DNA of 64,000 nt. Origin: Acidimicrobiales bacterium (lineage in GTDB: Bacteria > Actinomycetota > Acidimicrobiia > Acidimicrobiales > JACCXE01). The stretch is from assembly GCA_035546775.1 (NCBI GenBank), contig DASZWD010000072.1, positions 1 through 64,000 on the forward strand. The letters are read 5' to 3'. A program made the position numbers and the translations under genes. Of this stretch, positions 24,909 through 60,454 are shown piece after piece. The notes under the pieces were generated by a model. It did no database searches. It was not told the DNA's origin and saw nothing but the letters and a program-made list of their open reading frames with translations. Numbering within the stretch: position 1 is the first letter of the stretch; every line of letters begins with the position of its first letter.

Positions 24909-25121
24909 ATGGCAGCCGTATGCGAAGTCTGCGGGAAGCACCCGAACTTCGGTAAGTCCGTGTCGCACTCGCACCGTCGGACGAACCGTCGCTGGAATCC
25001 GAACATTCAGCGCATCCGAGCGCTCGTCAACGGCTCGCCGACGCGCCTGAACGTCTGCACGGGCTGCATCAAGTCGGGGAAGGTCACCAAGCCCCCCGTC
25101 AAGGTGCGCTCGGCCGGCTAA
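24909..25121 (+). CDS. rpmB: 50S ribosomal protein L28
   Basis: A 70-residue bL28. [28 protein letters not shown] and [12 protein letters not shown] show the zinc-binding (C+) form with two CxxC pairs. It is transcribed divergently from the FakA-like gene, 39 bases away, a conserved arrangement. Its stop lies 15 bases before the first inverted stem-loop repeat of the AbiEi-like cassette. Confidence 0.97.
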
Positions 25122-25136: not shown

Positions 25137-25168
25137 CGCTTTTGGTGATGCTCAGGCCGGGTCTTTCT
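25137..25168. repeat. Left inverted repeat of the AbiEi-like cassette
   Basis: The 32 bases starting CGCTTTTGGTGATGCT are an inverted copy of 26204-26235: 30 of 32 positions agree, with mismatches only at two internal bases. The copy continues inward as a stem-loop, since TGGTGATGCT (25143-25152) pairs perfectly with AGCATCACCA (25174-25183) across a 21-base loop. The inner half of that hairpin encodes the last residues of the AbiEi-like protein. No T-tract follows on either strand. Confidence 0.85.
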
Positions 25169-26106
25169 CATTCAGCATCACCAGAACCGTTGAGGCCGAG
25201 CGTTTCGCGAACGATCTCGAGGAACTTGCGGGGCTTGTAGACCGGGATTTCCCACCAGACCCGTCGGACCGTCCAGCCGTAGTACCGGCGCAGGACGAAG
25301 TCGCGGGCTTCGTCGCTTTGGCTGACATCCGGGTCGAGGTGCACATCGCCGTCGATTTCGATGTTCGTCTTCCTCGCTACATCGGCGAGGTCCATGTCGG
25401 CGACGATCTCGCCGCGCTCGTCACGAATGATGTGGTGCGTCACCACATCGTCAAAGCCCGCCTCGCGCAGCACCGTGTACGCGATGAGTTCGCTGTCGGT
25501 CTCGGTGATCGCGTCGCGCTCCATGCCCGCGGCGACGAGTTCGCGCAGGCGGCGGATGCCGCGCCGCCCCCGGCGCGCGTGGACGGCGAGGCACACCAGC
25601 AGGTCCTGCCAGTCGACGAGTCCCTGGCGGCGCGCGCGGTTGACGGCATCGCGGCGTGCGATCGACGACTTCAGCTTGCTCCCGATGTCGAGCAGCGTCC
25701 GGGCGGCGTCGGTCACCGGTATTCCGTCGACGACGACGATCCTGCACTTGTGGAGATCGCGGCTCGTGTGCACGATGACGTCAGTAGGCCGAAAATGCGT
25801 ATCGCGTGGAATCGTGATTTCGACGCTCGCCGTCGGGAAGCCCAGGCCGAGCAGTCTCGCCGCGCAGAAGAACGAAGCGGCGGCACCTTCGCCGGCCGCT
25901 TTGATCGCAGCGAGTACGCGCCCCTCGTAGGTCCAAGGAGAGCCGGCGAGTCGGTACACGCACTGGTGTACGCGAATCCAGCGGCCGGCGGCGACGCGAG
26001 CCTCAACGTGGTGCAACTTGCCGCCAGCGGCTCGCACGTCGGCCAGTGTGATCACCGAATGTTGCCGCGCGGCCACCGCCGCCATTGCCTCGTCGAACCG
26101 ATGCAC
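25168..26106 (-). CDS. AbiEi-like antitoxin domain fused to DUF559 nuclease-like domain
   Basis: A 312-residue protein. The N-terminal part (AARQHSVITLADVRAAGGKLHHVEARVAAGRWIRV) is the winged-helix AbiEi-type antitoxin domain. ARTLLDIGSKLKSSIARRDAVNRARRQG lies in the middle. The last 100 residues look like the DUF559/Vsr-like PD-(D/E)xK fold: DMDLADVARKTNIEIDGDVHLDPDVSQSDEARDFVLRRYYGW with the ordered acidic and Lys residues. No AbiEii nucleotidyltransferase toxin lies beside it, so this is a solitary copy. The start GTG at 26106 has an SD inside an inverted repeat. The whole gene is bracketed by inverted stem-loop repeats. Confidence 0.8.
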   Translation of the reverse strand: MHRFDEAMAAVAARQHSVITLADVRAAGGKLHHVEARVAAGRWIRVHQCVYRLAGSPWTYEGRVLAAIKAAGEGAAASFFCAARLLGLGFPTASVEITIPRDTHFRPTDVIVHTSRDLHKCRIVVVDGIPVTDAARTLLDIGSKLKSSIARRDAVNRARRQGLVDWQDLLVCLAVHARRGRRGIRRLRELVAAGMERDAITETDSELIAYTVLREAGFDDVVTHHIIRDERGEIVADMDLADVARKTNIEIDGDVHLDPDVSQSDEARDFVLRRYYGWTVRRVWWEIPVYKPRKFLEIVRETLGLNGSGDAE

Positions 26107-26114
26107 GGCCGCGC

Positions 26115-26139
26115 TCCCTTCAATCCGAGATCGAAGGGA
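26115..26139. promoter_or_regulatory. Inverted repeat over the ribosome site of the AbiEi-like gene
   Basis: TCCCTTC (26115-26121) and GAAGGGA (26133-26139) are perfect inverse complements with an 11-base spacer. Read on the minus strand, the arm nearest the gene contains the Shine-Dalgarno-like AAGGGAG before the GTG start at 26106. AbiEi antitoxins are known to repress their own promoters through inverted repeats, so this may be an operator. As RNA it could also hide the ribosome site. Confidence 0.5.
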
Positions 26140-26203
26140 AGAGAACTTCGACGGTGCCGCGCTGCGTCCGCTGCTGTCAAGAGCGAATTGGCGATGGTGA
26201 AGC

Positions 26204-26235
26204 AGAAAGACCCTGCCTCAGCATCACCAAAAGCG
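26204..26235. repeat. Right inverted repeat of the AbiEi-like cassette, covering the thiD stop
   Basis: This is the inverted partner of 25137-25168. It includes the last thiD codons and the stop (26224-26226), encoding the ending RFW. Like the left copy it forms its own stem-loop: TGGTGAAGC near 26195-26203 pairs with GCATCACCA (26221-26229) with one mismatch. Relative to the left copy it lacks six bases in the loop. The two arms bound a segment of about 1.1 kb. Confidence 0.85.
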
Positions 26236-26997
26236 GTGGGGGTGGGCGGCGGGGACGCCGCCGCCGATTCGCACCCGGTGCTGAATCGCCGCCGTGACGG
26301 CGGCTTTGCCGCGGCGGCAGGCCGACACGATGTCGTCGCCGAGGGCGATGCCCGCGGCGATCGAGGCGCTCAGCACGCAGCCCGTCCCGTGGGTTTCGTC
26401 GGCGACAACGCGCGGTGACTCCAGCCACACCGGCCCGGGCTGGCCCTGCACCAGCACGCAGTCGCGCGCCGGCCCGTCGCCGACGTGGCCGCCCTTGACC
26501 AGCGCGGCGCCGACGCCCATCTCAAGCAGCGCCCGGGCGGCGCGCACCATCGAATCGTCGTCGACGACCTCGATCCCCGTGAGCGCCCGCGCCTCGTGGG
26601 CATTCGGTGTGACGAGCGCGGCCCGGGCCAGCAACGCGCCGTAGTCCGCCTCGCCGTCGAACAGCGACGCTCCGGTCGTGGCCACCAGCACCGGATCGAC
26701 GACAACGGGGACGCCGACGGGCAACGCCGGGGCGATCGCCTGCATCATCTCGAGCGAACCGAGCATGCCGGTCTTGATCGCGCCGATCATCAGGTCCGAA
26801 CACACGGCCTCGATCTGGGCGAGGACGATGTCGACGGAAACGAGCTCGACGGCGTCGACGCCGATTGTGTTCTGCGCCGTGACGGCCGTGACGGCGCACG
26901 CGCCCCACACGCCCTGCGCCGCGAACGCGGCGAGATCGGCGGTCACACCGGCACCACCCGACGAGTCGACGCCGGCGATCGTCATCGCGACCCTCAC
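26224..26997 (-). CDS. thiD: Hydroxymethylpyrimidine/phosphomethylpyrimidine kinase
   Basis: A 257-residue ribokinase-fold enzyme that phosphorylates HMP and HMP-P for thiamine synthesis. MTIAGVDSSGGAGVTADLAAF is the ThiD start; VTAVTAQNTIGV, GAIKTGMLGS, VVVDPVLVATTG and the catalytic DETHGTGCVLSASIAAGI follow. I choose the GTG at 26997, which overlaps the thiL stop as GTGA; an ATG at 26985 is the alternative. Its last three codons and stop lie in the right arm of the cassette repeat, but its length is normal. Confidence 0.95.
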   Translation of the reverse strand: MRVAMTIAGVDSSGGAGVTADLAAFAAQGVWGACAVTAVTAQNTIGVDAVELVSVDIVLAQIEAVCSDLMIGAIKTGMLGSLEMMQAIAPALPVGVPVVVDPVLVATTGASLFDGEADYGALLARAALVTPNAHEARALTGIEVVDDDSMVRAARALLEMGVGAALVKGGHVGDGPARDCVLVQGQPGPVWLESPRVVADETHGTGCVLSASIAAGIALGDDIVSACRRGKAAVTAAIQHRVRIGGGVPAAHPHRFW

Positions 26998-60403: not shown

Positions 60404-60454
60404 GAATCGGTACGCGCTTCATGCCCTTGGAGGGCACAAAGCGCGTACCGATTC
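60404..60454 (-). terminator. Strong intrinsic terminator after the aldehyde dehydrogenase gene
   Basis: GAATCGGTACGCGCTT (60404-60419) and AAGCGCGTACCGATTC (60439-60454) are perfect 16-bp inverse complements, and a nested stem (GCCCT...AGGGC) lies in the loop. Read on the minus strand it begins five bases after the dehydrogenase stop and is followed by CTTTAT. It should end dehydrogenase transcription before the phosphotransferase gene. Confidence 0.85.

Follow-up and report, generated by a model that had tools for sequence, protein, structure and literature searches.

A palindrome-bracketed AbiEi-domain nuclease gene as a probable member of a REP-like repeat system

A solitary gene that joins an AbiEi domain to a nuclease-like C-terminus lies between rpmB and thiD in the genome of an Acidimicrobiales bacterium, within the window considered here (the whole stretch of DNA that was analysed, 64,000 nucleotides in length), and an inverted stem-loop stands at each of its ends. 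The locus raises the question of whether the gene and the stem-loops form one unit and, if so, of what kind. A preliminary description, made from the letters of the window, had taken them for a small mobile or recombining defence cassette without a transposase. The present analysis suggests that the palindrome-gene-palindrome unit is probably a member of a REP-like system that is built on a nuclease instead of a transposase, with the nuclease driving gain, loss, and homogenisation.

Organization of the locus

The features of the locus are collected in Table 1. The preliminary description had put the repeat at about 45 bases; its inverted stem-loops are real, whereas the full repeat is a palindrome of slightly larger size. 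The inverted arms as a whole (25137-25183 and 26189-26235) extend over 47 nt and are 87% complementary, and counting confirmed the 30 matches claimed for their outer 32 positions. The coordinates likewise bear out that the right copy contains the thiD stop codon (26224-26226) and the left copy the 3' end of the gene itself (stop codon at 25168-25170). Each arm also forms a hairpin of its own, with 25137-25152 pairing to 25174-25189 and fold z-scores between -2.4 and -5.5, and the right palindrome is inverted relative to the left one, as its core lies on the minus strand. When a pseudo-gene was slid along the window, a score above 20 was reached at the place of the nuclease gene only, and the matched flanks proved unique within the 64 kb (score 32, against 18.5 for the runner-up). 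A search of Rfam found no known RNA family within the 64-kb window, and tRNA-associated integration was rejected, since the window contains zero tRNA.

Table 1. Coordinates of the gene, the palindromes, and the neighbouring genes within the 64-kb window
Feature	Position	Strand	Remarks
rpmB (ribosomal protein L28), left neighbour, convergent with thiD	24909..25121	+	Pfam PF00830, E 3.6e-22
Left palindrome	25138..25188	+	51 bp; 22-bp arms; loop GGTCTTT; stop of the nuclease gene inside
Conserved asymmetric core of the left palindrome	25158..25168	+	CGGGTCTTTCT; consensus AGGGTCTTTCT
AbiEi-domain plus Vsr/DUF559-like nuclease gene, 312 aa	25168..26106	-	
Nuclease domain, residues 206-303	25198..25491	-	MTES_1575; PDB 3hrl and 3r3p profile; conserved residues
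AbiEi-like region, residues 7-185, with N-terminal winged-helix DNA-binding part (predicted)	25552..26088	-	PADLOC; PDB profile
Right palindrome	26184..26234	-	51 bp; thiD stop inside
thiD (phosphomethylpyrimidine kinase), right neighbour	26224..26991	-	Pfam PF08543, E 5.2e-69

A second, unrelated palindrome (GGAATCGGTACGCGCTT...AAGCGCGTACCGATTC) was observed at positions 60404-60454 of the window, where it abuts a possible stop codon. It belongs to another dispersed family, since a relative is located at L344:13935-13983.

Domains of the nuclease protein

The assignment of an AbiEi domain and a DUF559-type nuclease-like C-terminus made in the preliminary description agrees with the Pfam models AbiEi_4 (residues 7-54, E 3e-5) and REase MTES_1575 (residues 235-303, E 8e-4), both below the Pfam cut-off, and with the PADLOC AbiEi models (residues 7-185, E down to 1.7e-26); the paralogue L017 also matched DUF559. 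Comparison of the family profile with the PDB returned the DUF559-type endonuclease-like protein 3hrl (E 1.4e-5), the homing endonuclease I-Bth0305I (3r3p, E 1.1e-3), and AbiEi (6y8q, E 0.014). The AlphaFold model was weak (pLDDT 59.6, built from 3 sequences), and in a Foldseek search with this model AbiEi and I-Bth0305I took the lead, non-significantly, with a fold-match probability of 0.77 for I-Bth0305I. With residues E206, D239, E250, D252, H256, and D265 kept in most of the 127 homologues, the nuclease looks active, as judged by its conserved active-site residues.

The sole source of the defence label is the AbiEi domain name. Like AbiE type IV toxin-antitoxin systems, the locus has an AbiEi-type N-terminal domain and an inverted-repeat site almost equal in length to theirs; in contrast to them, a nuclease domain is fused to the AbiEi part and the AbiEii nucleotidyltransferase toxin is missing alongside, the neighbours being rpmB and thiD. 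With no toxin adjacent, it is therefore not an AbiE toxin-antitoxin pair. Carriage by plasmids or phages was rejected, as the nuclease had zero matches at 1e-5 on 72,556 plasmids and 50,697 phages.

Palindrome families in the genome

The genome harbors two close paralogues of the window gene (C2:75239 and C37:11967), which are 57-59% identical, and these are bracketed by the palindrome stems GGTCCGTCTCAG...CTGAGACGGACC in C2 and TTCTGGTGTCGCC...GGCGACACCAGAA in C37. The three genes are accompanied by three different palindrome pairs, one per gene, which define three families for the window gene and the C2 and C37 paralogues (GATGCTGAG, CCGTCTCAG, and GTGTCTCC). The consensus core AGGGTCTTTCT was found in 21 exact copies in the genome, within palindromes of three stem classes. 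For 19 of these 21 core palindromes, the 3' stop of an abutting gene is at most 60 bp away, compared with 7% of random intervals, and 10 lie between convergent stops, compared with 0.06% of random intervals. The core palindromes thus stand in terminator position, with the hairpin directly 3' of the stop codon, a feature of intrinsic terminators, and a terminator function is probable for the palindromes as well. The preliminary description had held that a repeat being simply a terminator after many unrelated genes would refute a cassette. This condition proved half true: the palindrome is indeed found in terminator position behind many unrelated genes, but its role goes beyond that position, because each family is tied to the one nuclease paralogue that it brackets.

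Alignment of the palindromes revealed covariation of the arms, with 15 of the 22 pairs altered on both sides. Double-change cells amounted to 72 (26.8 +/- 5.2 in shuffles) and the score to 0.380 (0.155 +/- 0.018 in shuffles), a strong compensatory change that suits a folded strand and symmetric half-sites of a dimer equally. A conserved foot, TT[TC]TGG / CCA[AG]AA, was present across the 22 aligned palindromes.

A more distant AbiEi homologue in the same genome, L128 (G000:C4), has a palindrome on each side (783-837 and 1776-1820); its brackets are not of one family, as each resembles a different solitary palindrome (L332:14523 and L338:7665). In roughly 460 kb of stretches of the own genome (L327-L346), about 25 strong palindromes were observed, with several further stem families, including CGAACTGGTCCTGTC at L336:3919 and L346:305 and the GGCGGCCAAATCGCGTC type at L327:3303 and 18986.

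Recurrence and specificity among relatives

The 34 genomes taken from the order, mostly fragmented draft assemblies by appearance, contributed 89 homologues. With a best left-right flank alignment score of at least 22 as the criterion, 52 of these had matched flanks, compared with 1 of 386 cross-genome flank pairs serving as order controls; the matched-flank counts include some non-palindromic repeats (e.g., L096, L121, L041, and L231), which were not taken as support on their own, and L230-L232 may stem from misjudged gene starts. The palindrome differs at nearly every locus, and about 35 of the 52 matched segments of the order set are clearly palindromic. Within single genomes, whose loci can be expected to share families, 13 of 306 flank pairs drawn from two different loci reached the threshold. 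In a sample of the phylum, 19 of 40 homologues reached the same score, vs at most 1 of 463 controls. In control DNA, 28 of 4,880 positions reached 22 (800 kb, three genomes), with 0 in the own genome, and there was no palindromic pair among the matches listed for the control DNA, which look like coding repeats. A search for related loci with a tighter alignment yielded two loci only, the earlier alignment having been too diverse. At most loci the start codon follows the upstream copy at a distance of about 30-150 bp. Approximately 40% of the homologues are without a matched pair, which counts against a REP-like system built on the nuclease.

Palindrome families are confined to the genome with the gene that matches them. 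The AGGGTCTTTCT palindrome occupies 20 places in its own genome and none in 30 relatives, including the congener, while the TTGTAACCG palindrome of the congener occupies 6 places there, 2 of them bracketing its gene, and none elsewhere. Between the two, the loop GGTCTTT is kept and the stems are wholly different. Across all loci, the similarity of the proteins was not correlated with that of the palindromes (Mantel r -0.04, p 0.80), suggesting that palindromes turn over faster than proteins; this missing co-divergence also counts against the REP-like reading.

Filled, single, and empty sites

The preliminary description had proposed a search for thiD-rpmB junctions without the gene, and such junctions exist: thiD adjoins rpmB without the cassette in the congener G001, and the two genes are likewise adjacent and empty in three other families. 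G001, whose gene and palindromes coincide with L165, is apparently the MAG MGR_bin170. The anticipated hairpin-bounded unit, filled or empty at the same site among relatives, is supported at the rpmB-thiD site and also at the L197 site of genus g103, which the C-terminus of RpoC suggests to be Mycobacterium.

At the L197 site, 4 species carried the order palindrome-gene-palindrome and 3 (G287, G263, and G286) a single palindrome, whereas 2 had neither and 1 had a divergent gene. In G287, the left flank enters the single palindrome where the upstream copy of G091 begins, and the right flank exits it where the downstream copy of G091 finishes. Furthermore, G287 has one palindrome at the L201 site, and G263 is empty at the L199 site, with zero palindromes. 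The flank tree is compatible with single palindromes as targets or as remnants, and the single-palindrome states may be deletions instead of targets. Concerted change was evident at the L197 site, where both copies of G297 share the new inner sequence ACCGGGGCTGTACCCCGGAAACCGCGCC and both copies of G256 share GACGAGCGGTGGGCGTACGAAACCGCGCC, each unlike G091.

At the rpoC site of g103, the cassette lies 3' of rpoC in G091 and five other genomes and is missing in many, and the nuclease genes there are 62-87% identical. The palindrome occupies the position of the GC-hairpin-plus-T-run terminator of other species. No concerted change was detected at this site; the pair drifts, with orthologous upstream copies (likeness 0.85-0.93) more alike than the upstream and downstream copies within a locus (0.77-0.82), which counts against a REP-like action of the nuclease. 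The internal stop found in one relative at the same site weighs in the same direction. In that relative (L241, G256), the nuclease gene contains an internal TAG and looks decayed, and the palindromes remain. Behind rpoC in G269 (L239), the nuclease gene is missing and a GC-hairpin-plus-T-run terminator is present; this locus also bears a palindrome (GCCGAACGTAACGCCAGGG...CCCTGGCGTTACGCTCGGC) that stands alone and belongs to a different family. Movement at nucleotide precision with identical flanks was not seen among the compared species, which are 10-20% diverged; this, like the possible origin of the single-palindrome states by deletion and the weak structure model, counts against the REP-like reading.

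Alternative explanations

Ordinary bidirectional terminators could fence a normally inherited nuclease gene, with gene conversion keeping the pair alike. The 3'-stop positions of 19 and the convergent-stop positions of 10 of the 21 core palindromes point this way, as does the palindrome that stands in the place of other species' terminator at the rpoC site of g103, but the paralogue-specific fence sequences, the tie to one gene family, and the privacy of the palindrome families are left unexplained, so that this account is considered unlikely; terminator action and mobility are in any case compatible and can coexist. It appears less likely still that the upstream palindrome is an autoregulatory operator of an AbiEi-type repressor and the other copies its regulon. 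The promoters of AbiEi and Rv2827c do contain 23-bp inverted repeats to which these same proteins bind (PMC7319586), and the spacing of the upstream copy from the start codon at most loci would agree with such a role, whereas the dispersed copies lie 3' of genes and not 5', the downstream copy overlaps the nuclease gene's own stop, and orthologous single-palindrome sites occur without the gene.

The matches to PADLOC AbiEi models and the presence/absence pattern could also be expected of a stand-alone anti-phage nuclease that is swapped between strains by homologous recombination in the conserved neighbours. This possibility is very improbable given that no partner toxin is adjacent, plasmids and phages gave no match, and the cognate palindromes would be unexplained. 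The preliminary description had suggested movement by an IS200/IS605-type enzyme supplied elsewhere in the genome. As in IS200/IS605, a short unit has a hairpin at both ends, similar in size to those of the IS200/IS605 and RAYT families, but in contrast to them a Y1 transposase is found neither in the gene nor in the genome: no Y1_Tnp domain (PF01797) was detected in the 97.5%-complete genome by a search that was positive in 5 control genomes, nor do the 22 aligned palindromes have a conserved GTAG foot. A passenger of an IS200/IS605 or RAYT-type HUH enzyme acting in trans was therefore rejected as largely refuted by the absence of the Y1 domain, and hardly any likelihood is left to it.

Proposed mechanism and comparison with known systems

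A REP-like system built on the nuclease is supported by the paralogue-specific pairs, the matched flanks, the private families, and the arm covariation, together with the empty rpmB-thiD junctions, the polymorphism and concerted change at the L197 site, the likeness to I-Bth0305I, and the size of the AbiEi site. AbiEi binds two 23-bp inverted repeats that are 3 bp apart (PMC7319586), and the palindrome, with its layout of 22+7+22 bp, is near to this in size; for the EDxHD homing endonuclease I-Bth0305I, dimerisation on a target of almost 60 bp has been reported (PMC3943268). The binding, cutting, repair route, and terminator action that we infer would proceed as follows. The AbiEi-type N-terminal domain probably docks as a dimer on the two inverted half-sites of the approximately 50-bp palindrome, and a nick or cut near the conserved core of the palindrome is probably made by the Vsr/EDxHD-like C-terminal domain. 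A broken solitary palindrome could then be repaired from a palindrome-gene-palindrome locus, as homology links its two broken halves with the pair of copies that bracket the gene, and the gene would be inserted at an existing palindrome. Conversely, a break in the bracketing copies, or recombination between them, would delete the gene and leave one palindrome, or homogenise the pair. Solitary palindromes would persist 3' of stops as putative (bidirectional) terminators, a function that may explain why copies are tolerated behind stop codons.

The bracket recurs across actinobacteria with a new palindrome each time and is variable among species, and thus has the appearance of a mobile or selfish repeat system not described before. 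A more specific proposal, somewhat less likely than not, is an undescribed class of selfish elements, widespread in Actinomycetota, in which an AbiEi-guided EDxHD-like nuclease homes into dispersed palindromes of about 50 bp from its own private family and converts single palindromes into palindrome-gene-palindrome units, with the palindrome and the specificity changing together. Actinobacteria commonly carry AbiEi/DUF559-type genes, with as many as 14 PF18741 places in one genome. Defence databases currently label these genes AbiEi antitoxins, an annotation that would change if they are selfish or spread repeats and are carried by palindromes. Many actinobacterial 3'-end hairpins would also gain an origin, and REP-like systems would have arisen at least twice, with unrelated enzymes. 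Alleles with one and with two palindromes make mobility directly testable. In open-licence PMC text, no paper was found in which palindromes are connected with DUF559 or AbiEi-nuclease genes.

Among known systems, the I-Bth0305I or EDxHD (Vsr-like) homing endonucleases have a nuclease domain that the present one resembles by profile and weakly by fold, a gene whose presence at a given site varies between relatives, and, as reported for the I-Bth0305I family, a long target bound by a dimer. Unlike these, the gene described here is not in an intron or intein, and the target-like palindrome is intact on both sides instead of split and has many dispersed copies. Integron gene cassettes carry a single gene beside a palindromic attC site, whereas here two full palindromes accompany a single gene, and the units are not in arrays. 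In the REPtron (REP plus TnpA-REP/RAYT), dispersed, private intergenic palindromes of 20-50 nt likewise bracket a gene, and gene and palindromes are genome-specific. The system of the window works like a REPtron (PMC8266576), yet is not one: the enzyme is an unrelated AbiEi plus Vsr/DUF559-like nuclease and not an HUH Y1 transposase, a GTAG/CGTC foot is absent, several paralogues occur per genome, each with its own palindrome, and the gene varies in presence and absence, whereas tnpA-REP has been described as without evidence of mobility (PMC8266576). Double brackets, with two palindromes per side, were observed at L026, L077, L089, L093, L097, L118, L221, and L233 and are like tandem REP pairs. 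At L067, the short hairpin CAGAGCATCGGGCAGCCCCGATGCTCTG occurs twice (2038-2065 and 2108-2135), 70 bp apart.
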